A stretch of DNA of 37,799 nucleotides from Acidobacteriota bacterium (GTDB taxonomy: Bacteria > Acidobacteriota > Blastocatellia > Pyrinomonadales > Pyrinomonadaceae). The notes beneath the pieces were generated by a model. The model worked only from the letters and a program-made list of their open reading frames with translations. It did no database searches and was not told where the DNA came from. Every line of letters starts with the position of its first letter. Position 1 is the stretch's first letter. This document shows, one piece after another, positions 1-16,155 of the stretch. Position numbers and translations under genes: made by a program. The stretch covers positions 1 to 37,799 of the forward strand of contig JAIVJC010000154.1 of the NCBI GenBank assembly GCA_020200235.1, read 5' to 3'.

Positions 1-340
1 GGCACGGGGCTTGCCAAGAGTACACACCATGACGAGGGCGACGGGGCGAGCGGGGGGCCGCGAAGAGAAAAGTTTTTACCCTTCGCCCGTCACACGCCGC
101 CCGTCACGTAAAAATTTTTCTGCCACGAAATCAACGGCGGCGGTGTTTTGAGAGTAGAAGCAGGCAGTTGCTTGAAAATTCGGTGGTGCTGAAACATTCC
201 GCCCCGTGGTCGCGTCTATCAAACCGGGGCGCCAGGGAAGCGAGTCGCGAAAACGCGATGTAACTTTTTCGGAACTGGGATGTTTTACCAGAGTAATAGT
301 AATCAGCGCCCTGGATTTTCACGGCAGGAGGAGGAGCGAG
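1..340. other. Non-coding leader before the first gene
   Basis: I recognise no gene here. Two frames are open from the left edge (to about 111 and about 150), so the tail of an upstream gene could be present, but neither translation resembles a known protein. The stretch contains A/T-rich patches unlike the surrounding coding DNA (near 66-78 and 108-120), and the 10-mer CGCCCGTCAC occurs twice, at 84-93 and 98-107, 14 bases apart. These could be part of a regulatory region for the gene starting at 341. Confidence 0.4.
271..299 (+). promoter_or_regulatory. Possible promoter upstream of the 341 gene
   Basis: GGAACT at 271-276, a 17-base spacer, then TAATAG at 294-299 lie 41 bases before the first start codon. 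GGAAC is the usual -35 core of many ECF sigma factors, and an ECF sigma gene lies at 11442; the -10 looks more like a housekeeping site. I did not find a convincing copy of the same motif in front of the other genes of the locus, so this is tentative. Confidence 0.25.
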
Positions 341-1144
341 ATGAGACAAAAACTTAACGTCACCATTCTCGCCGCGGTCATCACGCTCGCGGGGGCGGGC
401 GAAGCGCTCACGCAGTTCGACGCGCTCAAGACTTCCGTCAACGACTGGACGCGGACGAGCCTCCTCGGGAGCCTCCTCGTCTACGCCGCCGACGGGACCG
501 AGAGTCCGGCGCAAGCAGCGCAGCCGACTGTCCTCCTCGCACACGCCGCAGCCGCCGACGGCTGCGGCAAGTCAACCTCCGCGGCTCTCGCGAGCCGCCC
601 TGCTTCGAGAAACAGAGTCGCCGCCCGAGGGCACGCGCGCGCGGCTGAGAAGCTCGCGCGCGGGCTCGAAGAGCTGGCGATGAGTTTCGCCGCCACGCCG
701 GACGCGCCGATGAAATGGAAGGCGCGCGAGGAGTTCGTCTTCAGGGTCATGCCCCGCGTCGCAGGCGCGGCGAAATCGGCGGGCGTGGGCTCGGACGAGC
801 GCGAGGCGATGCAAGCGGTTCGCGCCTACAAGGGCGTCGAGGCTGGGGCGGCACGCACGCGCGTCGCCGCGGAGTTGAAGAAGCTCGGTCTGCGGAAGGT
901 CTTCGTCCGCGTCGCGGAACTGGACGGCGTGAGCCTCCCCCCCGCGGCGTTCGAGTTCCGCCTGCCGGAGCCCGTCGTGCCCGAGCCCGCCGCGAACCCG
1001 CGCGCGGGTCTCGGCGACGAAGCGCCCGACCGGGACGCCGACGGCGGCGCGCCCGCACGCGCGCACGCGCCGTCCCTCGACTGCGTCACGCTCTTCGACA
1101 CACCCGCCACGACCGTCTCACTCGACTGCGACCCGCGCGGCTAG
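341..1144 (+). CDS. Secreted protein of unknown function
   Basis: This encodes 267 residues and I recognise no family. ATG 341 was chosen because a strong purine-rich ribosome site (GGAGGAGGAGCGAG) lies just before it; the frame is open upstream but carries no better start. The N-terminus (MRQKLNVTILAAVITLAGAG) is a positively charged and hydrophobic segment consistent with a signal peptide. Residues about 100-135 are Arg/Ala-rich and helical, followed by a region (about 125-210) with alternating charged and hydrophobic residues. The C-terminal 60 residues are Pro/Ala-rich and contain two cysteines (SLDC twice) close to the end. The gene heads a run of DUF4097 genes on the same strand, 103 bases before the next start, so it may be co-expressed with them. 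Function cannot be assigned. Confidence 0.6.
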   Translation: MRQKLNVTILAAVITLAGAGEALTQFDALKTSVNDWTRTSLLGSLLVYAADGTESPAQAAQPTVLLAHAAAADGCGKSTSAALASRPASRNRVAARGHARAAEKLARGLEELAMSFAATPDAPMKWKAREEFVFRVMPRVAGAAKSAGVGSDEREAMQAVRAYKGVEAGAARTRVAAELKKLGLRKVFVRVAELDGVSLPPAAFEFRLPEPVVPEPAANPRAGLGDEAPDRDADGGAPARAHAPSLDCVTLFDTPATTVSLDCDPRG

Positions 1145-1160
1145 TTTCCTTGCCCAACCC

Positions 1161-1179
1161 CGAACCGGACTTCGGTTCG
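1161..1179 (+). other. Small intergenic hairpin
   Basis: CGAACCG (1161-1167) and CGGTTCG (1173-1179) form a perfect 7-bp stem with a 5-base loop just after the stop at 1144. There is no T-run, so it is not a classical intrinsic terminator; it may tune expression between the two flanking genes. Confidence 0.35.
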
Positions 1180-1247
1180 CGCGCCACGGAGCGTGCCGGG
1201 GGTTGGTGCGCCTAAAAAGCGGAGTACGAGAGGAGCGGTTAAAGACG

Positions 1248-2084
1248 ATGAGAAAAAATATTCTGACCAAGCTCGCCGTCGCGTTCGCGGCTTGCCTGTC
1301 AATAACGACTGCGCGCGGCGCGGCCTTCGATCACGAAGACGACTTCAAGGAGCGCGACGCCTCGCGGCAGACCTACGCGCTCGCGCCCGGCGCGATCGTC
1401 GAGATCAACTCGGTGAGCGGCGGCGTCACCGTCGAGACTTCCGAGTCGAGCCGGGCGGAGGTCGAGATCGTGCGCACGGCGCGCACGCGCGCAGACCTCG
1501 ACTGCCGGCAGTTCAAGGTCGAGACCTCGTCGGATCGCTTGCGGCTCGACGGCAACGACGACCGCCGGCAGTGCCGCAACGTGCAGGTTCACCAGACCCT
1601 AAACTTGCGCCTGCCGCGCCGCGTCAACCTCGACGTGAACTCCGTCAGCGGCCACGTCCGCGTCGGCGCGCTCGACGGGTCGGCGCGCCTGAACAGCGTC
1701 AGCGGGAACGCCTCGGTCGAGCGCGCGTCCGGCAAGATCGTGTTTTCGAGCATCAGCGGGAGCGCCACGGTCGCGCGGGCGTCGGGCGACGTGGTCTTTT
1801 CGAGCATCAGCGGCCGCGTCCGCTTCGACCTCACGAGCCTCGGCGGCGGGGGCGTGCGCGTCAACAGCGTGAGCGGCACCGTGGACGTCGGACTGCCCGA
1901 CGGCGCGAACGCCGACATCAGTGTGCGCAGCATCAGCGGCAGCGTGACCTCGAACGTGCCGGGGCTGACCATCAACAAGATCGAGAACTCCTCCGACTAC
2001 GAGGGGCGCGTCGGCGGCGGCGGCACGAAGCTGACCTTCAACAGCATCAGCGGCAACGTCCGCTTCCACCGCACGGGCGAATAG
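1248..2084 (+). CDS. DUF4097 family secreted beta-repeat protein (1)
   Basis: This 278-residue protein begins with a signal peptide (residues 1-25, ending near TARGA). The mature part is a DUF4097 ('putative adhesin') domain: an N-terminal segment in which DFKERD is followed by QTYAL and an APGA strand, then a ladder of short strands separated by Gly turns. The turn motif NSVSG or SSISG/RSISG recurs at about 18-21 residue steps from residue 54 to the C-terminus. This regularity suggests a right-handed beta-solenoid or beta-ladder. ATG 1248 follows AGAGGAGCGG. DUF4097 proteins occur in envelope-stress operons such as Bacillus lia, but the biochemical role is not established. The gene is the first of three adjacent DUF4097 paralogues, 56 bases before the next. 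Secretion to periplasm or cell surface is inferred from the signal peptide. Confidence 0.85.
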   Translation: MRKNILTKLAVAFAACLSITTARGAAFDHEDDFKERDASRQTYALAPGAIVEINSVSGGVTVETSESSRAEVEIVRTARTRADLDCRQFKVETSSDRLRLDGNDDRRQCRNVQVHQTLNLRLPRRVNLDVNSVSGHVRVGALDGSARLNSVSGNASVERASGKIVFSSISGSATVARASGDVVFSSISGRVRFDLTSLGGGGVRVNSVSGTVDVGLPDGANADISVRSISGSVTSNVPGLTINKIENSSDYEGRVGGGGTKLTFNSISGNVRFHRTGE

Positions 2085-2140
2085 AGCCGCGCGCGGAAAA
2101 GTTTTTTAACGCGGATCAAGTTCAGGAGGCACTGAAAAAA

Positions 2141-3040
2141 ATGAGACTCAGGTTGATGTCGATGACACTCCTCGCGGCGCTCGCTTCGCTCGCGCTTTTG
2201 GGCGGCACGCTCTCGCCCCTCCCCGCTTCGTCGAGCGCGGCGACTCTCGCGCGCGGCGAGCGCCAGGACAAAGAGAAGCATAAACACGACGGCGACGACC
2301 ACGACACCCAGAAGGACAAGCACCGGGGCGGCGACGACGACAGGGAGTTCACCGAGCGCGACGAGTTCCGGCAGAGCTACGCGCTCGCGCCCGGCGCGCA
2401 GGTGCGCGTCTCCGGCATGAACGGCTCGGTGGACGTGGAGACTTCCGCGGGCGGCGCGGCGGAGGTGTACGTCCTGCGCACGGCGCGCAACCGCTCCGAC
2501 CTCGACTACCACAAGGTGATCGTCGAGCAGACCGCGACGGGTCTCGTCGTGCGCGGCGAGAGCAATAAAGGCGGGGGCTGGCGCGGCGATAACCGACAGG
2601 TGCGCCAGCGCGTGATGATGAAGATCCCGCGCAACGTCGATTTCACGGCGAGCGGCATCAACGGCAAGGCGACGGTGGGCGAGCTGGACGGACCCGTCAA
2701 GCTCTCCGGCATTAACGGCCGCGTCGACGTCGCGCAGGCGCGCGGCTACGTGGACATCTCCGGCATCAACGGCGCGGTGTCGATGCTGATCACGCAGATC
2801 ACCGAGCGCGGCATCCGCGTCTCCGGCGTCAACGGCTCGGTCGTGCTGCGCTTCGACGGCGCGCTCAACGCGGACCTCGCGGTCAGCGGCATCAACGGCT
2901 CGGTCAACGCCGACATGCCGAACGTGACGATGCAGGGCAGGGTCAGCCGCACGAGCTTCAACGCGAAGATCGGCGCGGGCGGATCGCCCATCAACGTCTC
3001 GGGCGTGAACGGCAGCGTCAAGCTTCTCCCGCGCTCGTAA
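2141..3040 (+). CDS. DUF4097 family secreted protein (2), SG(I/V/M)NG repeats
   Basis: This 299-residue DUF4097 protein has a signal peptide (hydrophobic residues about 8-22) followed by a very acidic, His/Lys/Asp-rich segment (about 43-67) that could bind metal or act as a flexible linker. The DUF4097 part starts at ERDEFRQSYALAPGA. The turn motif SG(I/V/M)NG occurs seven times (residues 91, 171, 189, 207, 228, 249 and 287), at 18-21-residue spacing in the middle. The neighbouring paralogue uses NSVSG/SSISG at the equivalent turns, so the copies share a fold but have diverged in turn chemistry. ATG 2141 is preceded by CAGGAGG at suitable distance. Function beyond envelope or surface localisation is unknown. 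Confidence 0.85.
   Translation: MRLRLMSMTLLAALASLALLGGTLSPLPASSSAATLARGERQDKEKHKHDGDDHDTQKDKHRGGDDDREFTERDEFRQSYALAPGAQVRVSGMNGSVDVETSAGGAAEVYVLRTARNRSDLDYHKVIVEQTATGLVVRGESNKGGGWRGDNRQVRQRVMMKIPRNVDFTASGINGKATVGELDGPVKLSGINGRVDVAQARGYVDISGINGAVSMLITQITERGIRVSGVNGSVVLRFDGALNADLAVSGINGSVNADMPNVTMQGRVSRTSFNAKIGAGGSPINVSGVNGSVKLLPRS
2411..3019 (+). repeat. Seven coding repeats of SG(I/V/M)NG in the DUF4097 gene
   Basis: Near-identical short DNA units of the form (A/T)(G/C)CGGC(A/G)T(C/G/T)AACGGC start at 2411, 2651, 2705, 2759, 2822, 2885 and 2999. They encode one turn each of the predicted beta-solenoid. The DNA-level similarity could favour slippage or recombination between units. Confidence 0.7.
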
Positions 3041-3060
3041 AGTCGAGAGCGCGGGCGGGG

Positions 3061-3135
3061 CGCGGCGCGTGCGCGCGTCGGCGGCAAGGTTGAGATGTGG
3101 GTCTCCGATCTCGACGCCGACGCGCGCGCGCCGCG
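3061..3135 (+). other. GC-rich imperfect hairpin between DUF4097 genes
   Basis: Arms 3061-3083 and 3115-3135 pair almost completely, with a two-base bulge, around a 31-base loop. The stem is nearly pure G/C. It lies in the 115-base gap between two DUF4097 genes, without a T-run, so it may stabilise or attenuate the transcript rather than end it. Confidence 0.45.
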
Positions 3136-3155
3136 TCAATCAGCGGAGTAAAAAA

Positions 3156-4928
3156 ATGAAGCCCAGCAGACTCGTCGCCCTCGCCCTCGTCGCCGCGTTC
3201 GCGTTCACGAACGTGGACGCGCTGCGCGTCGCGAGCGCCGAAGGCGGCGCCGGCGCGGAGGAGTTCCGCGAGGAGTTTCACCAGACTTACAAGCTCACAG
3301 CCGGGGGCCACGTCGCGCTGCGCAACATCAGCGGCGGCGCGCGCCTCTCCGTCTGGGATCGCGACGAGGTGCGGGTCGACGCCGTCAAGCACGCGCGCAC
3401 GCGCGAGCGGCTCGCCGAGGCGACGATCGAGGTCGAGGCGACGGGCGACTCGGTGAGCGCGCGCACGCGCTACCCGACGGACGAGCTGCGCTGGGACGGG
3501 CGCGACACCCTCGACAACCCGGCGAGCGTCGAGTACACGCTGACGGTGCCGCGCCGCGCGCGCGTCGATTCCGTCGAGCTCATCAACGGCGCGCTCGACG
3601 TGGAGGGCGTCGCCGGGCTCATCAAGGCGACGTGCGTCAACGGCCGCCTCACCGCGCGAAACCTCGCGGGCGAGGCGCGGCTCTCGACGATCAACGGCGC
3701 GCTCTCGGCGGAGTTCGACCGGCTCGAAGAGGGGAAGACCATCACGCTCGGCTCCGTCAACGGCACGCTCGACGCCGTGCTGCCGTCGGACGCGAGCGCG
3801 ATCTTAAAAGCCGAGACCGTCCACGGCACGATCACGAGCGATCTGGGCCTGCCCGTCAAACGCGGGCAGTACGTCGGCGCGTCGCTCGAAGGGCAGCTCG
3901 GCGCCGGAGCCGCGCGCGTCAAGCTCTCGAACGTCAACGGCATCATCCGCGTGCGCCGCGCGGCGGACGGTCGCCCGCAAAGTCCCGTGACGAACCTGTC
4001 GAGCAACGAGGGGCGCGACGCCGAGACGCGCGAAGAGTTGCGCGAGCGCGTGGATCGGCAGGTCGCGAACGCGACGCGGCGCGGGCGCCCCGACTCGGAA
4101 CGCGAGGGCGCGCGCGTTAATCGCGAGGAGCTAGATCGGATCAAGGAGGACGCCCGCCGCCGTGCGGAACAGCCCGACCGCGCCTTCGAGCGCGAGCTGG
4201 AAAGGCTCGGGCGCGACGCGGAGCGGGTGGCGCGCGAGGCGCAGTCGGCGATGCAGGGCGCGGGGCGCGAAGAGCGCGCGGAAGAGACGCGGCGCACGGA
4301 CGGCTACCGTCTCTCCGAGGTCGAATACAGATCGTTCCCGGTCGGCACACGCCCGCGCATCTCGCTCTCGACCTTCGACGGCGAGATCAGCGTCGAGGCT
4401 TGGGACAGGCAGACGGTGAGCGTCACGGCGACCAAGCGGGCGCGCGACGAACGGGCGATGCGCGGCATCGTCTTGGCAGTCGCCGCCGGCGGGTCGCCCG
4501 ACGCCGTCAGCTTCGGCGCGGAGTTCCCGCGCGCGCGGCGGACGGCTGCTGTCACGTGGGCTTCGGTCTCGCTCGAAGTGCGCGTGCCGCGCAACGCGAA
4601 CGTCACGGTGAGGAGCGGCGACGGGCGGCTCCGGCTCGCGGGCGTCTCCGGCGCGCTCGACCTGCGCACGGCGGACGGCGCGATCGAGGTCTTCGACAGC
4701 CGCGGTACGCTCAACGCCGTGACGGGCGACGGGCGCGTGCGCGTCACGGCGTTCGAGGGCGACGCGATCGCCGAGACGCGCGACGGGCGCATCACGCTCG
4801 ACGGTCGCTTCCGCCAGCTCGCGGCGCGCGCGCGCTCGGGGGCGATCACGCTCGCGCTCGCGCCGCTCGCGGCAGGCGGTTCCGACTTTGACAGCGACGA
4901 GTCGCCGACCGGGACACCGAATTTATGA
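3156..4928 (+). CDS. Two-domain DUF4097 protein with charged helical linker
   Basis: This 590-residue secreted protein has a signal peptide (about 1-30) and then a first DUF4097 domain (about 33-270) that begins EEFREEFHQTYKL and uses INGAL, CVNGRL and SVNGTL turns. Residues about 285-385 are extremely rich in Arg, Glu and Asp with heptad-like spacing, so they probably form a long helix or coiled coil. A second, shorter DUF4097-like domain follows (about 390-575), starting with EVEYRSFPVG and carrying DGEISVEAWDRQ and repeated 'DGR' turns. ATG 3156 follows GCGGAG and A-rich sequence. It is the third DUF4097 gene in a row and about twice the usual length. The two-headed layout would let one polypeptide bridge two partners, but this is inference. 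Confidence 0.82.
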   Translation: MKPSRLVALALVAAFAFTNVDALRVASAEGGAGAEEFREEFHQTYKLTAGGHVALRNISGGARLSVWDRDEVRVDAVKHARTRERLAEATIEVEATGDSVSARTRYPTDELRWDGRDTLDNPASVEYTLTVPRRARVDSVELINGALDVEGVAGLIKATCVNGRLTARNLAGEARLSTINGALSAEFDRLEEGKTITLGSVNGTLDAVLPSDASAILKAETVHGTITSDLGLPVKRGQYVGASLEGQLGAGAARVKLSNVNGIIRVRRAADGRPQSPVTNLSSNEGRDAETREELRERVDRQVANATRRGRPDSEREGARVNREELDRIKEDARRRAEQPDRAFERELERLGRDAERVAREAQSAMQGAGREERAEETRRTDGYRLSEVEYRSFPVGTRPRISLSTFDGEISVEAWDRQTVSVTATKRARDERAMRGIVLAVAAGGSPDAVSFGAEFPRARRTAAVTWASVSLEVRVPRNANVTVRSGDGRLRLAGVSGALDLRTADGAIEVFDSRGTLNAVTGDGRVRVTAFEGDAIAETRDGRITLDGRFRQLAARARSGAITLALAPLAAGGSDFDSDESPTGTPNL

Positions 4929-4943
4929 GAAACATTTTCGCGC

Positions 4944-4968
4944 GCGTCGGCGTCTAACGCCGCGACGC
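4944..4968 (+). other. Small bulged hairpin before DUF5916 gene
   Basis: GCGTC+GGCG (4944-4952) pairs with CGCC+GACGC (4958-4968), with a two-base bulge and a 5-base loop, in the 114-base gap between the DUF4097 and DUF5916 genes. No T-run follows. I see no other signal in this gap. Confidence 0.25.
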
Positions 4969-5042
4969 CGATTCGACGAATCCCCAGCGCGAGCCGGTCG
5001 GTCATTCCATTTAATCCAGTCAGCAAACGTAAAAAAGAAGCC

Positions 5043-7724
5043 GTGAAAGTTTTAGCGTTAACTCTCTGCCTGTTCGCCCTGCACGTCTGCGCGCTCGCGC
5101 AGACGCCGGCGGTCTCGACGCCTTCGCCCTCGCCCACCGCCGCGGCGAAACAGACTGACGACGCGAAGGAGATCGCGCCGGAGGGGAAGACCGATCCGGG
5201 CGCGAAGGCTCTCGCCGCGAACTCCCCGGCGGGCGGGCGCACGATCCGCACTTCGTCGGGCGTGATCACGGTGCCCGCCGAGAAGTTAGTCCCCATCCGC
5301 GTCCCGCGCTTCGACAAAGCCCCGGTCATCGACGGCAAGCTCGACGACGAGGTGTGGAAGCGCGCCGCCGTCTTCAAAGACTTCTACCAGGTGCAGCCGG
5401 GCGACAACACGCCTGCGTCGAAGCCCTCCGAGGCTTTCATCGGCTACGACTCGCGCTTCCTCTACCTCGCCTTCCACGCCTACGACGATCCCACGCAGGT
5501 GCGTGCGCGCGTCGCCAAGCGCGACGGCATCTTCGACGACGACTTCATCGGCGTCTACCTCGACACCTACAACGACAAGCGCAAGGCGATCGAGTTCTTC
5601 TTCAACCCGCTGGGCGTGCAGGCGGACGCCGTGCGCACGGAAGGGTCGGGCGAGGACTTCAGCATCGACTTCGTCCACGAGTCGAAGGGGATGCTGACGT
5701 CGGACGGCTACGTCGTCGAGGCGGCGATCCCCTTCAAGTCTTTGCGCTACACGGCGGGCAAGGACAAGCTCTGGGGCTTCCACGTCTTCCGGCGCATCCA
5801 GCGGTTCAACTCCGAGCTCGACTCGTGGCTGCCGCTCTCGCGCGAAATCTCCGGCACGCTCATCCAGGAGGGCTTCATCACCGGGCTCGAAGGCATCTCG
5901 AACGAGCGCAACGTCGAGCTGGTGCCGAGCCTCACGGTCTCGGAGACGGGCCGGCGCGCGCGCGCCTTCGCCCCCGCCGCGCTCGGCGCGCCGCCGCCCC
6001 TGCTCGACTCCCGCACGCTCAACGCGCCCATCGATTTCGATCCCGGCTTGACCGTCAAGTTCGGCATCACGCCGACCGTCACGCTCGACGCGGCGATCAA
6101 CCCCGACTTCGCGCAGGTCGAGGCGGACGCCACCGTCGTCACGGCGAACCAGCGCTTTCCCATCTTCTTCGAGGAGAAGCGACCGTTCTTCCTCGAGGGC
6201 AAGGAAGTCTTCCAGACGCCGCTCACCATCGTTCATACGCGCGCCATCGTCGATCCCGATCTCGCCGTTAAACTTTCGGGCAAGCGGGGGCGCAACACCT
6301 TCGGCTTGATCGTCGCCTCAGACAACGCCCCGGGCAACTTCAGCCAGGACGAGATCGACGAGCGCTGGCTGAAGGTCAACCGCATCGCCGACCCCGACGC
6401 GCGGCGTGCCGCCGAGGCTGACCTGCGCGGCGGCTTCCTCGACAAGCTCGTCGGCAAGAACGCCACCATCGGCGTACTGCGCCTGAAGCGCGACGTAGGT
6501 AGAGAGAACACGCTGGGCTTGATCGCGACGACCTACAGCTTCCCCGACCGCTACAACCACGTCGGCGGCGTGGACGGCCGCTTCAAGCTCGACCCCAAGA
6601 CGGTCTTCAGCTTCCAGCTCCTCGGCACGCGCTCGCACCGCCCGTTCTTCGAGCCGGAGCTGGGCGCGAACGTCGACCGCACCGGCAACGCCTTCGCCTA
6701 CCGCTGGAGCTACGACCGCAGCGAGCGCAACTACGGCATCAACGTCAACGGCGACGGCTACACGCGCGACTACAAGGCTGACGTGGGCTTCACCACGCGC
6801 ACGAACACGAACGCCGTCCGCATCAACCCGCGCTGGAACAGCGAGCCGAACACGAAGAACCAGATCATCTCCTACCGCGCCAACGCCTCCGTCGTCTACC
6901 AGACCGACTTCCAGGGTCGGTCGCAGCGCGTGGACGTGCAGCCGATGTTCGGCTTCAACCTCCAGCGCCAGACCGCCGTCATCTTCGGCTACCGCCGCGC
7001 CTACGAGCGGCTGATCGAGGAGGAGTTCGGGAAGAAGCGCTCGGTGGCGCACCCCTGCGATCCGGCGTTCGAGGACATCAACCTGCCGCCCGATCGACGC
7101 CGCCCGAACTGCGGGTTCTACGGCGCGGACCCGGAGCGCTCGACCTACAAGCACAGCGTCATCGGCGTCGTCGAGTCGCAGTTCTCGAAGAAGTACTTCG
7201 TCTTCTTGCAGGTCATCCGCGACATGAACGTCTTCGACTTCGACTTCGGCAACGGGCGCAAGTTCCCGCGCGTGAGCCCGGCGGCGCTGCTGCTCGGTCA
7301 GGGCGCGCCGCTCGATCCGGGCGCGGGCGATCTGTGGAACATCCAGAGCTCCTTCGTCTACCAGCCGTCGAACGCGCTGCGCACCTCGCTCGACTACACG
7401 AAGCAGCGGCTCGTGCGCGACGACACGGGGCGCACCGCCTTCGACGAGAACATCATCACCTCGCGCACGACCTACCAGTTCACGCGCTTCCTCTTCGCGC
7501 GCGCCCGCGCCGATTACTCGACGCTCGCCTCGCGCATGCGCGGTCAGTTTCTGGTGGGCTGGACCCCGAACCCGGGCACCGCCTTTTACGTAGGTTACAA
7601 CGACGACATGACGCGCAGCGGCTTCGACCCCTTCTCCGGGAGTCTCCAGCCGGGCTTCCGCCGCAACGGTCGCACCTTCTTCATCAAGATGTCATACCTC
7701 ATCCGGCGCAGCTTCGGCGGCTGA
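5043..7724 (+). CDS. CBM9-like/DUF5916 outer-membrane protein (1)
   Basis: This 893-residue protein starts at GTG 5043, after an AAAAAAGAAG stretch, with a signal peptide cleaved near ALA-Q (residue 19). A low-complexity Pro/Thr/Ala stretch is followed by a carbohydrate-binding family 9-like domain (about 80-285; note IDGKLDDEVWK and the SRFLYLAFHAYD strand). The rest, from about 290 to 893, is a DUF5916 region with alternating aromatic/polar strands (for example FAYRWSYDRSERNYGI) typical of a beta-barrel. The C-terminus, KMSYLIRRSFGG, is rich in aromatic residues like outer-membrane signals. DUF5916 proteins are predicted outer-membrane proteins of unknown function, often near TonB-type receptors. 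A close paralogue follows immediately. A role in binding or passage of a glycan or hydrophobic compound is only inferred. Confidence 0.85.
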   Translation: MKVLALTLCLFALHVCALAQTPAVSTPSPSPTAAAKQTDDAKEIAPEGKTDPGAKALAANSPAGGRTIRTSSGVITVPAEKLVPIRVPRFDKAPVIDGKLDDEVWKRAAVFKDFYQVQPGDNTPASKPSEAFIGYDSRFLYLAFHAYDDPTQVRARVAKRDGIFDDDFIGVYLDTYNDKRKAIEFFFNPLGVQADAVRTEGSGEDFSIDFVHESKGMLTSDGYVVEAAIPFKSLRYTAGKDKLWGFHVFRRIQRFNSELDSWLPLSREISGTLIQEGFITGLEGISNERNVELVPSLTVSETGRRARAFAPAALGAPPPLLDSRTLNAPIDFDPGLTVKFGITPTVTLDAAINPDFAQVEADATVVTANQRFPIFFEEKRPFFLEGKEVFQTPLTIVHTRAIVDPDLAVKLSGKRGRNTFGLIVASDNAPGNFSQDEIDERWLKVNRIADPDARRAAEADLRGGFLDKLVGKNATIGVLRLKRDVGRENTLGLIATTYSFPDRYNHVGGVDGRFKLDPKTVFSFQLLGTRSHRPFFEPELGANVDRTGNAFAYRWSYDRSERNYGINVNGDGYTRDYKADVGFTTRTNTNAVRINPRWNSEPNTKNQIISYRANASVVYQTDFQGRSQRVDVQPMFGFNLQRQTAVIFGYRRAYERLIEEEFGKKRSVAHPCDPAFEDINLPPDRRRPNCGFYGADPERSTYKHSVIGVVESQFSKKYFVFLQVIRDMNVFDFDFGNGRKFPRVSPAALLLGQGAPLDPGAGDLWNIQSSFVYQPSNALRTSLDYTKQRLVRDDTGRTAFDENIITSRTTYQFTRFLFARARADYSTLASRMRGQFLVGWTPNPGTAFYVGYNDDMTRSGFDPFSGSLQPGFRRNGRTFFIKMSYLIRRSFGG

Positions 7725-7741
7725 CGGCGGGTGGCGAGTTT

Positions 7742-7825
7742 CAAGCTCCGGGTCGCCGCCGTCGCGGCGGGTCGGGTCGGTGGGCTTCTTACCCGCGCGC
7801 CGGGCGGCGGGCGACCCGGAGCTTG
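7742..7825 (+). other. Long inverted repeat between the DUF5916 genes
   Basis: CAAGCTCCGGGTCGCC (7742-7757) is perfectly complementary to 7810-7825. The 52-base interior can form a further short stem (GCGGGT near 7766 with ACCCGC near 7791). No T-run follows. The structure supports placing the next start after it, at 7863, rather than at GTG 7731, which would translate through it. Confidence 0.6.
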
Positions 7826-7862
7826 GAAGCATTTGCGGCGGAACGTGAAAGGCAGAACGAGG

Positions 7863-10800
7863 ATGAGCCCAAGGGCAAGTCGCGCCCCACAGCGCGCACT
7901 ACCACCTACCACCAGTAACTTTTTCAGACTCGCGTCCGGACTGACGGACGAGCCGCCCCGCGGCGCGACGCGGCGAAGACTCTCCGTCTTCGCCGCCGCC
8001 GTTTTATGCGCCGCCGCTTTAGCCTCAGCCGCGAGCGCGCAGCAGATCGCGCGCCTCTCGGGCGACAAGACGGCCGCGTCGAAACCGGCAGCCGCGGGCG
8101 AGGAGCGCGGCGCGCTCAAGCGCATCGCCTCGCTGCGCGGCGGCGAGACTTTGGACGGCTGGCGCGTCGTCGTCACGTCCGACTCTTCGCTCGACGACTA
8201 CGCCGCCCGGCGCGAGGGCTCGCGCTTCGTCGTCCGCCTGCCGCGCGCCGACGCCTCCGCGATCTCGAACTCGGTCGGCGGCGCGATCGCCGGGGCGCGC
8301 GTCGAGCAGCGCGGCGCGGACGTCGTGCTCTCGTTCGCGCTGCCCGAAGGGGTCGCGGCGCGCGTGCGCCAGAGCTTCAACCGGCTCGAAGTCATCTTCA
8401 ACAGGCAGGACGCCGCGCAGTCGGGCGCGTCCCAGCAGCCGCCCGCGAAGCCGACGCCGGCTCCGGTCGCGCCTGAAGTCAAGCCGGCCGATCCGTCGAA
8501 CACGGTGCCGGGCGCGCCCGCGACGACCGATCCGCTGACCGTGCGCGAGGCGGTCGGCGCGTCGAAGACGGTCGCCTCCGGGGGCGGGCGCAACGCCGTC
8601 AAGTTGCCGCCCGAAAAGGCGCAGCCCGTCCGCGTCCCACGCTTCGAGAAAGCCCCGACAATCGACGGCAAGCTCGACGACGAGGTGTGGAAGCAGGCGG
8701 CGGTCTTCAAAGACTTCTACCAGATCGAGCCCGGCGACAACATCGCGCCCTCGAAGCCGACCGAGGTGAGGATGGGCTACGACTCGCGCTTCCTCTACCT
8801 CGCCTTCCACGCCTACGACGATCCCACGCAGGTGCGTGCGCGCATCGCCAAGCGCGACGGGATCGACGACGACGACCTGGTCGGCGTCCTGCTCGACACG
8901 TTCAACGATCAGCGCAAGGCTTACCAGCTGGAGTTCAACCCGCTCGGCATCCAGGCGGACGCGATCTACAGCGACAGCAACGGCGACGATTCCAGCTTCG
9001 ATCTCGTGATGGAGTCGAAGGGCACTCTGACGGCTGACGGCTACACGGTGGAGGTCGCCGTGCCGTTCAAGTCGCTGCGCTACGAGGCGGGCAAGGGCAA
9101 ACTCTGGGGCATCCACCTCTACCGCGAGATCAGGCGATTCAACAACGAGTCAGACACCTGGATGCCCCTCTCGCGCGACGTCTCGGGCGTGCTCATCCAG
9201 GCGGGCAAGATCACCGGGCTCGAAGGCATCTCGACCGAGCGCACGCTGGAGATCATCCCCAGCCTCACCGTCTCGGAGACGGGCAGGCGCGCGCGCTCCT
9301 TCGCCCCGGTCACCGTCGGGCAGCCGCCGCCCGCGCTCCCCGGCCGCCTTTTGAACGAGCCCGTCGCCTTCGACATCGGAGTGACGACCAAGTACACGCT
9401 GACGCCGACCGTCTCGCTCGACTTCGCCTTCAACCCCGACTTCGCGCAGGTCGAGGCGGACGCCACCGTGGTGACGGCGAACCAGCGCTTTCCCATTTTC
9501 TTCTCCGAGAAGCGCCCCTTCTTCCTCGAAGGCAAGGAAATCTTCGAGACCTCGAACTCGGTCGTCCACACGCGCGCCATCGTCGATCCCGACTACGCCG
9601 TCAAGCTCACGGGCAAGCGCGGGCGCAACAGCTTCGGCGTCATCCTCGCCTCCGACAACGCGCCCGGCAACTTCAGCGACGACGAGCTGGACGAGCGCCG
9701 GCTCGGCGTCCTCGGGATCGCCGACCCCGACGTGCGCAGGCGCGAGGAGGCGAAGTTCCAGACCTTCATGGAGAGGTTCGTCGGCAAGAACGCCTACATC
9801 GGCGTCTTCCGCGTCAAGCGCGACGTGGGGAAGGAGTCGAGCGTCGGAGCGTTCGCCACGACCTACAACTTCATCGAGCGGCACAACCACGTCGTAGGCG
9901 TAGACGGTCGCTTCAAGATCGACGCCAAGACGGTCGCGGGCTTCGAGGTGGTCGGCACGAACTCGCGCCGCTTCTTCCGCAACCCCGATCTCGACTACAC
10001 GCTCACGCACCCGGACGATCACCCGACCTCGCCCGGCGAGCCGGTCTATCCGGGTCAGCAGATTTTCCGCACGGGCAACGGCTTCGCCTACTCGTGGGTC
10101 TGGGACTATACGGGCCGCCACTTCGGCTACGTCTTCAACGGCTCGGGGCGCACGCGCGACTACCGCGCCGAGGTGGGCTTCACCCGCCAGACCAACACGA
10201 ACAACGCGCTCGCGGGCTGGCGCTGGAACACCGAGCCGAACCCGAAGGCGACGCTGACGAAGTTCACTATCCGCAACTTCACCGCCGCGTGGTGGAACTG
10301 GCAGTCGAGCCTCCAGAGCTGGTCGAACGGCACGAACTTCGGGTTCAGCCTCGCGCACCAGACCTTCGTGCAGCTCGGCACCAACTTCGGCTACGAGCGC
10401 ATCTTCGAGGAGGAGTTCGGTCCGCGCCGGGGTCAGGCGCGCCCCACGGGCAAGCTCATCGAGGGCGCGTTCGCCGGCCTGGACGGCGAGCGGCAGGTGC
10501 GCCGCAAGGCCGTCTTCATGTACGCCGAGCGGCAGTTCACCAAGCAGGTCTACGCCAACCTCTTCGTGGGCACGCAGCGCGGCATCTTCGACTTCGACTT
10601 CGGCGCCGGCCCGCGCTTCCCGCGCGTCAGCCCCGTCGCGCTCGCGCTCGGTCAGGACGCGCCGCTCGATCCCGGCGCCGCCAACGGCTTCGACATCAAC
10701 ACGGGCGTTAACTACAAGCCGACCAACGCGCTGAACCTCTCGCTCAACTACACGAAGGCGCGACTCGCGCGCCGCGACACCCGCCTCCTCGCCTTCGACG

Positions 10801-11075
10801 AGAACATCTATCAGCTCCGCGCCACCTACCAGTTCACGCGCTTCCTCTTCGCACGCGCCCGCGTCGATTACGAGACGCTCGACGCGAACGCGCGCGGGCA
10901 GTTCCTCCTCGGCTGGACGCCCAACCCCGGCACGGCCTTTTACGCGGGCTACAACGACGACATGACGCGCAACGGCTTCAACCGCTTCACCGGCGAGCTC
11001 GAGCCCGGCTTCCGCCGCAACGGCCGCACCTTCTTCGTCAAGATGTCGTACCTCTTCCGCAGGAGCTTCGAGTAG
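7863..11075 (+). CDS. AMIN-like/CBM9-like/DUF5916 outer-membrane protein (2)
   Basis: This is about 1070 residues if ATG 7863 is used. The true start is uncertain: the frame is open from 7731, and the hydrophobic signal core lies only at residues 41-58 (cleavage near ASA-QQ). An extra N-terminal domain (about 90-180) with strands such as WRVVVTSDSS and VVLSFALPEGVAARV resembles AMIN domains of PilQ and AmiC, which bind cell wall. A Pro-rich linker leads to a CBM9-like domain (about 258-460, with IDGKLDDEVWK) and a DUF5916 barrel to the end (KMSYLFRRSFE). Long stretches are almost identical to the upstream paralogue, indicating tandem duplication, while the N-terminal addition is unique. Together they may form a paired outer-membrane system; the substrate is unknown. 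Confidence 0.82.
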   Translation: MSPRASRAPQRALPPTTSNFFRLASGLTDEPPRGATRRRLSVFAAAVLCAAALASAASAQQIARLSGDKTAASKPAAAGEERGALKRIASLRGGETLDGWRVVVTSDSSLDDYAARREGSRFVVRLPRADASAISNSVGGAIAGARVEQRGADVVLSFALPEGVAARVRQSFNRLEVIFNRQDAAQSGASQQPPAKPTPAPVAPEVKPADPSNTVPGAPATTDPLTVREAVGASKTVASGGGRNAVKLPPEKAQPVRVPRFEKAPTIDGKLDDEVWKQAAVFKDFYQIEPGDNIAPSKPTEVRMGYDSRFLYLAFHAYDDPTQVRARIAKRDGIDDDDLVGVLLDTFNDQRKAYQLEFNPLGIQADAIYSDSNGDDSSFDLVMESKGTLTADGYTVEVAVPFKSLRYEAGKGKLWGIHLYREIRRFNNESDTWMPLSRDVSGVLIQAGKITGLEGISTERTLEIIPSLTVSETGRRARSFAPVTVGQPPPALPGRLLNEPVAFDIGVTTKYTLTPTVSLDFAFNPDFAQVEADATVVTANQRFPIFFSEKRPFFLEGKEIFETSNSVVHTRAIVDPDYAVKLTGKRGRNSFGVILASDNAPGNFSDDELDERRLGVLGIADPDVRRREEAKFQTFMERFVGKNAYIGVFRVKRDVGKESSVGAFATTYNFIERHNHVVGVDGRFKIDAKTVAGFEVVGTNSRRFFRNPDLDYTLTHPDDHPTSPGEPVYPGQQIFRTGNGFAYSWVWDYTGRHFGYVFNGSGRTRDYRAEVGFTRQTNTNNALAGWRWNTEPNPKATLTKFTIRNFTAAWWNWQSSLQSWSNGTNFGFSLAHQTFVQLGTNFGYERIFEEEFGPRRGQARPTGKLIEGAFAGLDGERQVRRKAVFMYAERQFTKQVYANLFVGTQRGIFDFDFGAGPRFPRVSPVALALGQDAPLDPGAANGFDINTGVNYKPTNALNLSLNYTKARLARRDTRLLAFDENIYQLRATYQFTRFLFARARVDYETLDANARGQFLLGWTPNPGTAFYAGYNDDMTRNGFNRFTGELEPGFRRNGRTFFVKMSYLFRRSFE

Positions 11076-11093
11076 GGCGCGGGGCAGCGAGCC

Positions 11094-11326
11094 AAGCCCC
11101 TGAAATGGGCGACACCCTAACGAAGCCCCTGAAAGGGGCGACAGATAGTAGCCCACGGCGTGAGCCGTGGGTGACTCGATAGGTAGAAATTCGAGAGCCC
11201 CTGAAAGGGGCGAAAGAAATTCAAGCCGCAATTTCTTTCGCCCCTTTCAGGGGCTCTCAATCTTTTTTATGTCGTTAGTCCCACGGCTCACGCCGTGGGC
11301 TAAAATCTTCCGCCCCCTTCGGGGGC
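11094..11326. repeat. Cluster of interspersed palindromic repeats
   Basis: This 366-base gap before the sigma gene holds palindromic units of two kinds. Type A (AGCCCCTGAAAGGGGCG and variants) starts at 11095 (imperfect), 11124 and 11196, with inverted copies at 11239-11255 and 11311-11327 (CCCCC variant). Type B (TAGCCCACGGCGTGAGCCGT plus GGG) lies at 11149-11171, with a perfect inverted copy at 11280-11302. On each side the order A, 8-base spacer, B is identical, so two composite elements face each other around a central A hairpin. Similar composites recur, as I recall, in many Acidobacteria and Planctomycetes genomes. They are probably mobile or REP-like repeats, not genes. Beyond them, 11330-11441 holds only the presumed sigma promoter region, in which I could not identify a clear promoter. 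Confidence 0.8.
11193..11268 (+). terminator. Strong hairpin with T-run downstream of DUF5916 gene
   Basis: Arms 11193-11221 and 11230-11258 are perfectly complementary over 29 bases with an 8-base loop, followed within four bases by TCTTTTTT (11261-11268). It is long and GC-rich at the base with an A/T-rich tip. It would serve as an intrinsic terminator separating the DUF5916 pair from the sigma operon. It is built from two inverted copies of the type A palindromic repeat. Confidence 0.65.
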
Positions 11327-11441
11327 TGGTCGCCTTTTCGTCGGATAATGGTACTCTCCCTGCCGCGCCGGGCGTTTTTCTCTCGACATTCGTCCGCCTT
11401 CGCTGAAACTTTTCCCCCTCACGCGTCACTTACTAGGCGGG

Positions 11442-12083
11442 ATGATGATGGAACGACTGGCGATCGAGACATTTGACGCTGCCGCGGCGAGCCAGTCGGG
11501 CGCGCGGAAGACCGCCCCACAGATGAGCACAGCCTCGACCCCCATCGCGCGCGCGCGGCGCGGAGACGCCGAAGGGTTCCGCCTCCTCTTCGAGCGCTAC
11601 AGCCGCCCCGTCATCTCGTTCGTCTTTGACATGGTCGGGGATCGCGCGCTCGCCGAAGACCTGACGCAGGAGACCTTCGTCCGCGCCTACCGCCACCTCG
11701 GCGAGCTGCGCGAGGAGGAGAAGTTCTCGACGTGGCTCTTCTCCATCGCCAAGAACGTCGCCCGCGAGCACCTCCGCAGCGGCGAGCGGCGCGCGACGAA
11801 GGTCGAGCTCGACGACGAGTCCGTGCTCGAGCTGCGCGACGGGAGGCAGACGCCCGCGGGCGAGCTGCTCGACAAGGAGCTGAATTCGGTCGTGCGCCGC
11901 GCGCTCGGCGCGCTCGACGAGGACAAGCGCATGGTCTTCGCCTTGAAAATTTTCCAGCAGCGCAGCTACGAGGAGATCGTCGAGATCACGGGGTTCTCCC
12001 TGCCGAAGGTCAAGACCGATCTCCACCGCGCGCGCGCCGAGATGCGCCGGCGCATCGGACCCTACATGGGGGTGAAGCAATGA
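11442..12083 (+). CDS. ECF-family RNA polymerase sigma factor
   Basis: This encodes 213 residues. Sigma region 2 covers about 45-105, including FERYSRPVISFVFDMVGD, the DLTQETFVRAYRHL signature and FSTWLFSIAKN. Region 4 covers about 150-205, including ALDEDKRMVFALK and the helix-turn-helix SYEEIVEITGFSLPKVKTDL. No region 3 is present, as usual for ECF factors. Three ATG codons follow one another (11442, 11445, 11448); the AGGCGG site is best spaced for 11448, and a further ATG at 11523 lies at the usual family start. The stop overlaps the start of the zinc-finger anti-sigma gene (ATGA), so the two are translationally coupled. Its targets are unknown. The surrounding DUF4097 genes are natural candidates, and autoregulation is common in the family. 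Confidence 0.93.
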   Translation: MMMERLAIETFDAAAASQSGARKTAPQMSTASTPIARARRGDAEGFRLLFERYSRPVISFVFDMVGDRALAEDLTQETFVRAYRHLGELREEEKFSTWLFSIAKNVAREHLRSGERRATKVELDDESVLELRDGRQTPAGELLDKELNSVVRRALGALDEDKRMVFALKIFQQRSYEEIVEITGFSLPKVKTDLHRARAEMRRRIGPYMGVKQ

Positions 12084-13018
12084 TGAAGTGCCAGGAGTGT
12101 GAAAACTTTTTAGAGGGATACGTGGACGGCGAGCTCGAAGCGCGCGACCGCGACGCGGTCGGAGCACACCTCGCCGCCTGCGCCCTGTGCGCCGACGCCC
12201 ACCAGGCGCTCGTCTCCGAAGCCTCGCTCTACGCGAGCTACGAGCGCGGCGTCGAGGCGGCGGCGCCGCGACTGTGGGGCGGTGTCGAGGCGCGGATACG
12301 CGCGGAAAAAACTGTCGGTGATGTGGGTCTCCTCCAGAGAGTCTCCGCGTGGTTCGCCCCCCTCCTCACCGCCCCACGCTTCAGCCCGGCGCTCACCGCC
12401 GCGCTCGTCCTCGTCGCCGTCCTCCTGACGGTCGGCGTGATGAAGCTCACCGGCTCGCGTGAACAGCCGCAGCAGCCCACGCTCGCGACCAACGTCCCGC
12501 AGTACGATCCGAATCGGGTCGCGGCGACTTCTCCGACTATGCAGCCCGCCGCGACTTCAACCCCCGCCGCCGTCGTCGCCCCGTCGGCTGCGCCGGGCGC
12601 GTCGCCCGAACAGAAGAGCCCGCAGCCCGAGAACCGCAAGAGCCCGTCGGACGAGCAGCGCAGGCGCGCGAACGAGTTGCCGGGCGGCGGCGGTCGCGTC
12701 GAGCAGGCTGTGAACGCCACGCCGACGCCGGGTCGCGACAGCAAGGCGACGCCCGACCAGCTCGTGCGGGAGGCGGAGCAGCGCTACATCGCCGCCATCC
12801 GCATGCTCGAGCGCGACGTGAAGAGCCGGCGCTCGCTCCTCGACCCGCAGACCGCCGCCCGCTTCGACGAGACGCTCGCCGCCATCGACCGCTCCATCGG
12901 CGAGACGCGCCGCACCGTCCGGAAGCACGGCAGCGACCCCGTCGCCGTCCAGTACATGCTCTCGGCTTACGCCAAGAAGGTCGAAGTCCTGCGCGAGATG
13001 GCGCACGCCGAACGGTGA
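12080..13018 (+). CDS. Zinc-finger anti-sigma factor, membrane-anchored
   Basis: This 312-residue protein begins with a zf-HC2 anti-sigma domain: C4 and C7, then H30-x3-C34-x2-C37 within AHLAACALC. A single membrane segment (about 103-122, ALTAALVLVAVLLTVGVM) separates the cytoplasmic finger from a Pro/Ala/Ser-rich linker (about 128-220). The C-terminal part is helical and charged (about 225-312) and resembles a sensor domain only in general character. It would bind and hold the sigma factor encoded just upstream until an envelope signal releases it. The ATG overlaps the sigma stop by four bases. The start could also be the second ATG at 12083. Confidence 0.88.
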   Translation: MMKCQECENFLEGYVDGELEARDRDAVGAHLAACALCADAHQALVSEASLYASYERGVEAAAPRLWGGVEARIRAEKTVGDVGLLQRVSAWFAPLLTAPRFSPALTAALVLVAVLLTVGVMKLTGSREQPQQPTLATNVPQYDPNRVAATSPTMQPAATSTPAAVVAPSAAPGASPEQKSPQPENRKSPSDEQRRRANELPGGGGRVEQAVNATPTPGRDSKATPDQLVREAEQRYIAAIRMLERDVKSRRSLLDPQTAARFDETLAAIDRSIGETRRTVRKHGSDPVAVQYMLSAYAKKVEVLREMAHAER

Positions 13019-13099
13019 AATTTGATCGAGGCAATGAAATTGATCGAGTCGGACGAGCCCGCGCCCCCCGAGTCTGAACGAAAAGAGTAATCAACGAAA

Positions 13100-14292
13100 A
13101 TGAGGAAACGAACTTTTACCGCAATCATCAACGCGCTCGCCCTCGCGGCTTGCGCGACGCTGCAACCGCTCGCCGCGACGGCGCAGGAGTCGGGCGGCAC
13201 GGTCTCTCTGAGCAACCAGTCGGGGCGCGTCTCGGTGAAGCTGGAGCGCGGCAGCCGCGTCTCGGTCAGCAACCGCTACGGGCACATCAACATCACGGGC
13301 TGGGATCGCGACACGGTCGAAGCCTCGGCTTCGAGCAGCCGGGGCGCGGAGGCGGTGCAGGTGGAGATGACCGCCGACCCGCAGGCGAGCTCCCGTCTCT
13401 CGCTCGCCGTCGTCGGCCGCAACCGCGGCCTGTCCGGCGGCTTGTACGGCAGCAGCCCGGCGATGTGCATGGAATGCCGAACGTCACGGTCGACCTGGGG
13501 AACATCGTCGTCACCACGCCGCAGTCTCCGCAGCCCGCGCGGCCGCCCGCGCAGCCGCGCGTCGCGGGCGGCGGAGCGGGTGCGGGCGTCGGGTCGGACA
13601 CCGGCATCACGCTCGACGTGAAAGTCCCGCGCTACGTGCAGCTCGACGCCATCGAGGCGCGCGCGGGCGCATTGAACGTCTCCGGCATCGACGGTCCCGT
13701 CTCGATCATGAGCGGCAGCAGCGACATCAACGTCAGCCGCGTCGGCTCGCTGGAAGTCCGCGCGCGCGGCGGCGAGGTCAACGTCGAGGACGTGGGCGGC
13801 CTCGTCTACGTCGTCTCGACGAGCAGCGAGATCAACGTCAAGCGTTCGAGCGGCGACGTGCGCGTCACGACGATCAACGGCAACATCGACATCCAGTGCG
13901 TCAAGGGGCGCGTGGACGCCGGGACCTCGCGCGGCAAGATCACGCTCACCAACGTCGGCGGCGACGTGGAGGCGACGACCACCGACTCCGACATCAACTT
14001 CACCGGCGCGATCGCGCAGAACGGCCGCTACCGTCTGAAGTCGATGGAGGGGCACGTCCGAATGTCGATCCCCGACGGCTCGCCCGGCTTCACCGCGAAC
14101 CTGATGTCCTACAACAGCGACGCCGTCAGCGACTTCGCGGTGCGCGCCTCCACCCCGCGCCCCGACTCGCAGGCGATGCGCCGCGTCGAGGTCAGGCAGG
14201 GCGACGGGCAGGCGCAGATCACGCTCGACTCGTTCAGCCAGACCGTGCGCCTCTCGAAGCTCGCGCCCGGCGCGGCTCCCGCGTGCCGGTAA
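13100..14292 (+). pseudogene. DUF4097 family protein, interrupted by a one-base frameshift
   Basis: The first part (13100 to about 13470) reads as a signal peptide plus DUF4097 start (QESGGTVSLSNQSG, then YGHINITGWDRDTVEASA). The second part (about 13475-14292) continues in another frame with NVTVDLGNIVV, a Gly/Ala/Pro-rich linker and a long repeat ladder (LNVSGIDGPVSIM, INVSRVGSLEV, EINVKRSSGDVRVT). Joining the frames needs a one-base shift near ATGGAATGCCGAACG at about 13465-13480, equivalent to a missing base. There is no slippery heptamer, so programmed frameshifting is unlikely. It is either a true pseudogene or a sequencing/assembly indel. If intact it would be a secreted protein of about 397 residues. 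It lies 81 bases after the anti-sigma gene and 33 before the next DUF4097 gene. Confidence 0.75.
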
Positions 14293-14325
14293 AACAACCC
14301 CGCCGAATTTAAGGAGTGACGGAAG

Positions 14326-16155
14326 ATGAGAATGAAGCTGATCGCAGTCGTCGCCCTCGGCGCGTCGGTCGCCGCCGCGTTCGCCGCGCGGGGCGCGAGC
14401 GCGCAGGAGGCGCGCGTCTCGCCGCGCGTCGAGATCAAGCCGGAGATCAGGATCGACACGAAGATCGCGCCCGTCGCGATCAGCCTGCCCGACATCCAGA
14501 TCAACATCCCCGACTTCGACTTCCAGATGCCGCCGATGCCCGCGCTGGCTCCGCTGCCGGACATGCCCGACATCTACATCAACGGCGGCGACATCTGGAC
14601 GGGCGACGAGACGACCGAGCGCGAGGAGCTGCGGCAGACTTTCCAACTCTCGCCAGGCGCGCGCGTCGAGCTCTCGAACATCGACGGGCCCGTCCACATC
14701 GACACGACCGACGGGGCGGGCGCCGAAGTCGTCGTCAAGAGTTTTTCTTACGCCGCCAGCCCGCGCAAGCTCGTCTTTGAGCAGACCTCTTCGAGCCTGA
14801 CCCTGCGCGGACCCGAGCGGAGGGAGAAGGGCGACTTCGACTCGGCGGACGGCACGCGCCACTCGGTGCGCCTCACCATCCCGCGCCGCTCGAACCTCGT
14901 GCTGACGAATGTCCGCGACAGCGTGCGCGTCGGCGAGCTGGACGGGACGGTGAAGCTCGACCGCGTGGCGGGCCGCGTCGGCATCGCGCAGGCGAGCGGG
15001 GGCGCGGAGATTTCCGACGTGTCGGGGTCGGTCTCGATGGCGCTCTCGCGCCTGTCTGGTCGCGGCGTCACGGTCTCGAAGGTCGCCGGCAAGGTCACGC
15101 TCCGCTTCCTCGAAGACGTGAACGCGGAGTTGCAGACCGGGGGCGTCAAGGGCAAGGTCTACGTCGAGCTGCCGAACGTCGCCGTGCAGGGCGAGATGAC
15201 GAAGACGGACTTCCGCGCGAAGGTCGGCGCGGGCGGCGTCCCCGTCAACGTCAACGACGTGACGGGGACGGTGCGCCTCGCGCGCGGTCAGAACGTCGCG
15301 GAGATGCTCGCGGTCTTGAAGTCGTCCGACCGCAGCACGAACCGCAACCAGGCGGTCTCCGATCTCGCGCTGCACGTCTCGAACCCGCAGGTGCGGCAGG
15401 CGTTCGTCGAGGCGCTGCGCGACGAGCAGAACAACCTCGTGCAGATGACCGCCGCGCGCGAGCTGGCGGCTTACGCTGTAGAGCCCGAGGTGCGCGACGC
15501 GTTCCTGCGCGCGCTCGAAACGGGCAAGAACGACTCGGTGCGGATGACGGCCGCCTCCGCGCTCGCCAAAAAATACGCGGGCGAGAGGGACGTGCGCGAC
15601 CGGCTGCTGAAAGTCCTCGCGACCGAGAAGAAGGACGTCATCCGCTCGACCATCATCGGCTCGGTCGCGAAGTACGTTGACGACCCCGCCGTCATGCGCG
15701 CGCTCGTGGACGCGCTCCGCTCGGACGCGAAAGAGCTGGTGCGCTCGCGCGCCGCCCGCGCCCTCGCCGCGAAGGTCGAGAACGCGGAGGTTTACGACCT
15801 GCTCCTGAACGCCGCGCGCTCGGATCAGAAGCGTGTCGTGCGCATGGTCGCGCTCGACGGTCTGAGCCGGCGCATCCGCGAGCGAGCCGAGCTGCGGGAG
15901 CTCTTCGTCGGCTACCTCGAAGACGAGTCGCAGTCGATGCAGTTCCACGCGCTCAAGGGGCTCGTCGAGTTGAACGACCCGACATTGAAGCCGCGGCTCG
16001 TCGAGAAGGCGCGCGAGATCATCCTGACGGACTACCGCCGCGGGTGGAACACGAGCACGGTCCTGAGCACGCTCGTGCTGCTGCGCAAGCTCGACCCGCC
16101 GGAGGCGGATCGGATGCTCGAACAGTTGGGCAACGAGCGCGTCAGGAGTTTTTAA
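14326..16155 (+). CDS. DUF4097 protein fused to HEAT-like repeats
   Basis: This 609-residue protein has a signal peptide (about 1-26, ending GASAQ) and a stretch of Pro/Ile/Asp-rich short strands (about 30-90, for example SLPDIQINIPDFDF). A DUF4097 domain (about 95-320) starts EREELRQTFQLSPGA and carries DGTV, VSGSV and VTGTV turns. The last half, from about 325 to 609, is alpha-helical with regularly repeated 30-residue units (VRQAFVEALRDEQNNLVQM, VRDAFLRALETGKNDSVRM, VRDRLLKVLATEKKDVIRS), typical of HEAT/PBS-lyase-like repeats that scaffold protein contacts. The ribosome site AAGGAGTGACGG precedes the ATG. The solenoid-plus-solenoid layout suggests a surface or periplasmic scaffold. It closes the sigma-linked group and is followed by a strong hairpin. 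Confidence 0.85.
   Translation: MRMKLIAVVALGASVAAAFAARGASAQEARVSPRVEIKPEIRIDTKIAPVAISLPDIQINIPDFDFQMPPMPALAPLPDMPDIYINGGDIWTGDETTEREELRQTFQLSPGARVELSNIDGPVHIDTTDGAGAEVVVKSFSYAASPRKLVFEQTSSSLTLRGPERREKGDFDSADGTRHSVRLTIPRRSNLVLTNVRDSVRVGELDGTVKLDRVAGRVGIAQASGGAEISDVSGSVSMALSRLSGRGVTVSKVAGKVTLRFLEDVNAELQTGGVKGKVYVELPNVAVQGEMTKTDFRAKVGAGGVPVNVNDVTGTVRLARGQNVAEMLAVLKSSDRSTNRNQAVSDLALHVSNPQVRQAFVEALRDEQNNLVQMTAARELAAYAVEPEVRDAFLRALETGKNDSVRMTAASALAKKYAGERDVRDRLLKVLATEKKDVIRSTIIGSVAKYVDDPAVMRALVDALRSDAKELVRSRAARALAAKVENAEVYDLLLNAARSDQKRVVRMVALDGLSRRIRERAELRELFVGYLEDESQSMQFHALKGLVELNDPTLKPRLVEKAREIILTDYRRGWNTSTVLSTLVLLRKLDPPEADRMLEQLGNERVRSF

Follow-up and report, generated by a model that had tools for sequence, protein, structure and literature searches.

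Two probable adjoining paralogous ECF sigma/anti-sigma modules with separate predicted promoters in an Acidobacteriota contig

Envelope stress in bacteria is read by several described systems to which the locus studied here can be compared. Among extracytoplasmic function (ECF) sigma factors, the tested promoters of the ECF41 group read TGTCACA-N16-TGTT/CGTC (PMC3426412). The Toastrack domain (DUF4097) of phage-shock and Lia systems has been predicted to be intracellular (PMC11237479), and the beta-strand C-terminal domain of LiaX is reported to inhibit its own signalling system (PMC10269926). We analysed a window of 37,799 nucleotides that makes up all of contig G000:C127. The draft genome to which it belongs, from a soil-type Acidobacteriota, measures 4.08 Mb in 258 contigs at 87.6% completeness, and its closest relatives among our searches are Pyrinomonadaceae/Blastocatellia genomes from metagenomes. 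On its plus strand, positions 341–16155 hold five DUF4097 genes (B, C, the two-headed D, the frameshifted I and the HEAT-fused J), two DUF5916 genes (E and F) and a gene pair for an ECF sigma factor (ECF2, gene G) and a zf-HC2 anti-sigma factor (H), an inventory first drawn up in a sequence-only reading and confirmed here by Pfam, alignment and an orthologue. This stretch joins two paralogous modules, predicted to be switched separately: module 1, genes A–F (341–11075), and module 2, comprising ECF2, H, I and J. We think it probable that these are two ECF/anti-sigma envelope modules with promoters of their own, module 1 being driven by a second sigma factor, ECF1, from a promoter P1, and module 2 by ECF2 from a promoter P2.

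The regions upstream of ECF1 genes share the motif TTGYCACAAA-N10-GCGGTGTTTT, that is, TGYCACA-N16-TGTT (P1), and those upstream of ECF2 genes share TGAAACYTTT-N11-GNNACTNA (P2). In the window, the predicted ECF1 promoter occupies 121–147 (plus strand) before gene A, with a −35 box TGCCACG at 121–127, a 16-nt spacer and a −10 box TGTT at 144–147. It scores 28.2 (null maximum, 14.3), and the matrix scan of the window returned no second site at or above the P1 reporting cut. The predicted ECF2 promoter lies at 11402–11436 (plus strand) before ECF2, with TGAAACTTTT at 11404–11413 and GTCACTTA at 11425–11432; it scores 39.7 (null maximum, 18.5) and is the sole match to the strict P2 pattern in the assembly. 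Another P2 match in the window, at 257, scores 12.3, under the null maximum. A single motif had been suggested upstream of 341, 1248, 5043, 11442 and 13100. The matrix test rejects one promoter common to all five: 341 has P1, 11442 has P2 and neither matrix matches the other three. The gene at 341 (A), moreover, belongs to a separate secreted family and not to DUF4097.

Both matrices were trained solely on sigma-gene upstream regions and then tested on other gene classes; the null was the same upstream regions reversed, not an independent genome sample, and whole-genome scans served as the independent check. The two motifs have separate target sets. P1 was matched ahead of 31/31 ECF1 and 8/8 A genes, 15/34 small DUF4097 genes, 19/46 two-headed DUF4097 genes, 11/100 DUF5916 genes and, weakly, 1/37 ECF2 genes; the first DUF4097 gene of an operon (0/50), anti-sigma genes (0/66) and J (0/7) had no match. 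The P2 matrix matched 25/37 ECF2 genes, 5/34 small DUF4097, 5/100 DUF5916, 3/46 two-headed DUF4097 and 2/66 anti-sigma genes, 1/31 ECF1 and 1/8 A genes, and neither the first DUF4097 gene (0/50) nor J (0/7); beyond ECF2 and the small DUF4097 genes, these matches were mostly weak. With these conserved motifs ahead of their own genes, the sigma factors may be positively autoregulated. First genes tend to carry sites and operon-internal genes do not, a pattern that fits promoters.

Whole-genome scans gave a first P1 pattern 40 matches against 1 in the reversed control (25 family genomes); by our own count, these lay ahead of ECF1 (11), DUF4097 (12), A (7), LytTR-type regulators (2), and small secreted proteins (2), with 6 left unassigned. 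A second form of P1 was matched 54 times across 32 family genomes, against 0 in the control; in other families of the class, 9 genomes gave no match. P2 was found ahead of ECF2 genes 20 times, against 2 control matches (33 genomes). The loci in relatives with P1 ahead of LytTR-type response regulators and small secreted proteins are L260, L268, L256 and L258. In G032 (L109, L113 and L115), P2 precedes a DUF4097 gene and genes for a PDZ-type protein and a LolD-like ABC transporter.

ECF1 was found in 16/17 sampled Pyrinomonadaceae genomes; among about 230 Acidobacteriota outside the family, none had it at E ≤ 1e-40. The distribution of P1 parallels it, both being found in Pyrinomonadaceae only; ECF2 extends to other Blastocatellia families. 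Could P1 be the operator of another regulator rather than a sigma promoter? LytTR response regulators would be candidates, as P1 stands ahead of their genes in G016 and G002. However, P1 has two boxes at a fixed 16-nt spacing in the form of ECF41 promoters, precedes every tested ECF1 gene, is absent from outgroup genomes in which ECF1 was not found, and stands at the head of each unit, ahead of its first gene, rather than inside operons. We therefore regard an operator as unlikely.

A search of the window's own genome for ECF1 found a fragment at G000:C240:5545–5955 that reaches the contig end and is preceded by a P1 site at 5489–5514. Haem-biosynthesis-like genes adjoin ECF1 on this contig, and their relatives adjoin ECF1 in G019, G013, G010 and G007. 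These include, at G000:C240:1108–5200 (L155), hemE-, hemH- and protoporphyrinogen oxidase-like genes (named from sequence starts only), which are divergent from ECF1 and kept in relatives. In G021 and G019, the P1 site equivalent to that of the window follows the first DUF4097 gene and precedes A; the window begins 121 bases ahead of its own P1 site. On the simplest reading of this synteny, C240 would adjoin the left edge of the window, and the gap would hold the rest of ECF1, its anti-sigma gene and one DUF4097 gene.

The gene order is not unique to this genome: comparison with other Acidobacteriota recovers it for either module. Module 1 in relatives runs ECF1, zf-HC2, DUF4097, A and/or a small DUF4097, two-headed DUF4097 and DUF5916, some genomes being without some members; across the family, genes of the D type adjoin DUF5916. 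Module 2 runs ECF2, zf-HC2, DUF4097 and a further DUF4097, which is HEAT-fused in close kin. The order sigma–anti-sigma–DUF4097 is kept in 27/27 ECF1 loci with room for it and in 17/24 ECF2 loci, both far above chance. Each of the three families (ECF, DUF4097 and DUF5916) is represented many times in these genomes, which would suit an ordinary neighbourhood of functionally unlinked secreted and outer-membrane genes near a common ECF pair. The conserved order, with its 27/27 ECF1 triads, disfavours such a neighbourhood, as does the P1 motif, which picks out unlinked DUF4097 genes in other parts of these genomes; we consider it highly improbable.

The sequence-only reading had placed all of these genes in one regulated system, with the sigma factor of the window controlling the DUF4097 set. 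The association of ECF/anti-sigma pairs with DUF4097 and DUF5916, the gene order and the promoter evidence for sigma control of DUF4097 and some DUF5916 genes all uphold its core idea, which stands because gene order and regulation are conserved. Its single switch does not: there are two modules with different promoters, A–F carrying P1, with ECF1 on C240, and ECF2, with its own promoter, heading only the I–J operon. For ECF2 to control every DUF4097 and DUF5916 gene between 341 and 16155 would agree with their co-location on one strand, repeated in the sole genus-mate that covers the F–ECF2 junction (G001, L035, where the contig end cuts the DUF5916 gene upstream of ECF2), and with the ECF2 modules of another family, which include DUF4097 and DUF5916 (L137 and L151). 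By contrast, A–F have P1 and not P2, and the genome contains an ECF1 with the same P1 site. In G021, a single contig carries both modules at a distance of about 80 kb, and in G019 they are on separate contigs; their direct fusion was met in the window's genus only. In the DUF5916 tree, E groups with the module 1 copy of G019 and F with that of G021 (L038_6686), placing both in module 1. Finally, a 366-bp gap containing a strong hairpin separates F from ECF2. Control of the whole set by ECF2 is accordingly quite unlikely in our estimate.

For the two-module arrangement, we propose the following mechanism. In each module, the zf-HC2 anti-sigma factor, which spans the membrane and places a three-helix domain in the periplasm, would keep its ECF sigma factor inactive until an envelope signal frees the latter. 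The freed sigma factor would then transcribe its own operon (sigma factor, anti-sigma factor and secreted DUF4097) as well as target operons encoding secreted Toastrack/DUF4097 proteins and DUF5916 outer-membrane proteins that combine a CBM9 domain with a barrel. In the window, A–F would be transcribed from P1 by ECF1, and ECF2, H, I and J from P2 by ECF2. We infer that each sigma factor binds its own motif and that the signal is of envelope nature; the periplasmic DUF4097 proteins may sense it or feed back on the anti-sigma factor, with DUF5916 as a putative surface output. More tentatively, the modules may represent an undescribed form of Blastocatellia envelope signalling. Its paired ECF/anti-sigma switches would be promoter-orthogonal, with secreted Toastrack proteins serving them as periplasmic sensors or feedback partners; the outer-membrane output would come from CBM9-barrel DUF5916 proteins, and the ECF1 branch would be private to Pyrinomonadaceae.

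Predicted folds and export are in keeping with these roles. The model of H has a zinc-binding helical N terminus, one transmembrane helix, a disordered linker of ~95 residues and a confidently modelled periplasmic three-helix bundle (predicted local distance difference test mostly >90). The C-terminal region with this bundle is conserved across both modules; despite the good model, the three-helix domain matched no Pfam family and had no PDB match at E ≤ 0.001. The model of E (predicted template modelling score, 0.78) combines a signal helix with a CBM9-like domain and a beta-barrel like those of TonB-dependent receptors and porins; the DUF5916 profile had no match among PDB sequences. The DUF4097 proteins of the window begin with signal peptides by a crude rule, which places them outside the cytoplasm. 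Because trying many starts led this rule to flag some cytosolic ECF genes falsely, we relied only on calls at the defined starts in the window.

Several points weigh against this explanation. Seven of the 24 ECF2–zf-HC2 loci have no DUF4097 gene nearby, most DUF5916 genes have no P1 ahead of them, and few targets of P2 lie beyond its own operon, making for a thin case that ECF2 controls anything past I and J. A terminator scan between F and ECF2 found no canonical terminator, so transcription may read through out of module 1. That C240 adjoins the window is read from synteny rather than from assembly, and the support as a whole is computational.

Gene families were assigned by Pfam scans of the main open reading frames of the window. 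In module 1, A (341–1144) encodes a member of an unnamed secreted-protein family that neither Pfam nor NCBIfam matched, and B (1248–2084) encodes a LiaG-like secreted DUF4097 protein (PF13349 at 7e-8). The product of C (2126–3040), a secreted DUF4097-like protein resembling the LiaX C terminus, had no match of its own in the Pfam scan; it aligns with J at 41% identity and matches LiaX weakly. D (3156–4928) has two stretches matching DUF4097 (Pfam, 3e-9). E (5043–7724) and its paralogue F (about 7863–11075), which has a long N-terminal extension, are DUF5916 genes with CBM9_1. The gap between the modules contains a nested inverted repeat at 11125–11305 (z −15.8) resembling repetitive extragenic palindromic sequences and bacterial interspersed mosaic elements; it has 46 matches in its own genome, many of them as same-place, opposite-strand pairs.

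In module 2, the ECF2 gene (11442–12083) has sigma regions 2 and 4 by Pfam and is SigW/RpoE-like; judging from the alignment, its true start is probably a conserved Met at 11523 rather than 11442. H (12080–13018) overlaps it. I (13100–14292) encodes a secreted DUF4097 protein in two frames, with a frameshift near 13460 and a 3′ part matching PF13349 at 4e-8. As its orthologues in relatives are single intact frames of 438–466 amino acids, the frameshift is peculiar to this assembly; alignment with an intact orthologue does not fix its exact position, as the linker at this place varies too much. J (14326–16155) encodes a secreted DUF4097 protein fused to HEAT repeats (HEAT_2 at 1e-26), and its orthologue L036 matches both DUF4097 and HEAT. 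Metabolic and transport genes (K and M–P) follow module 2 in the window and in G021. Further along, at 28654–31589 on the minus strand, the window encodes an outer-membrane barrel protein (OMP_b-brl_4, CarboxypepD_reg) split over two reading frames. Elsewhere, L182 has a further ECF/zf-HC2-like pair (4229–6042) ~4 kb upstream of a DUF5916 gene, and L272 (G000:C137) has a zf-HC2-like gene (6719–7852) ~5 kb from one. L273 (G000:C246) and L302 (G002:C334), from two species, have the same gene coordinates and 10,001 identical compared bases, which suggests cross-binning.

DUF4097 and DUF5916 are common and poorly understood families that here gain a predicted co-regulated gene set, and two motifs with two sigma factors turn a vague envelope association into a testable predicted regulon. 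The modules also suggest a route by which an ECF module was duplicated and came under its own promoter, in a lineage that is represented here almost solely by metagenomes. In the literature searched, DUF5916 was named in no paper that we found, and no paper linked DUF4097 to ECF sigma and anti-sigma factors; in line with the sequence-only reading, the papers searched contain no description of a system with this composition.

Compared with known systems, P1 (TGYCACA, 16-nt spacer, TGTT) has the form of the experimentally tested ECF41 promoters (PMC3426412). Membership of ECF1 in ECF41 was nevertheless rejected: at ~200 amino acids, ECF1 shows sigma regions 2 and 4 but no C-terminal extension beyond them, and its partner is a zf-HC2 anti-sigma factor, next to DUF4097, whereas ECF41 members have the extension and a carboxymuconolactone decarboxylase, oxidoreductase or epimerase partner. 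The −35 element of P2 matches that of SigW (PMC2375139); a literature search for the literal string gave only unrelated matches among those listed. As with the Toastrack partners of phage-shock and Lia systems (PMC11237479) and with LiaG and LiaX, DUF4097 is linked here to envelope-signal regulation, and two DUF4097 proteins have weak profile matches to LiaG and two to LiaX. Pfam scans of the main open reading frames detected no PspA, PspC, LiaI-LiaF-TM or LiaFSR two-component genes, and the DUF4097 proteins of the window carry signal peptides, in contrast to the intracellular prediction for Toastrack (PMC11237479). The closest likeness in architecture is to zinc-binding anti-sigma (ZAS, zf-HC2) systems of the SigW/RpoE type. 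ECF1 and ECF2 show the features of ECF group IV, having sigma regions 2 and 4 only and an adjacent cognate anti-sigma gene, and share with that type a conserved motif before the sigma gene and an anti-sigma factor with one transmembrane helix and a periplasmic domain. They differ from it in their DUF4097 and DUF5916 output, in the unmatched three-helix domain and in forming two parallel modules with different promoters.

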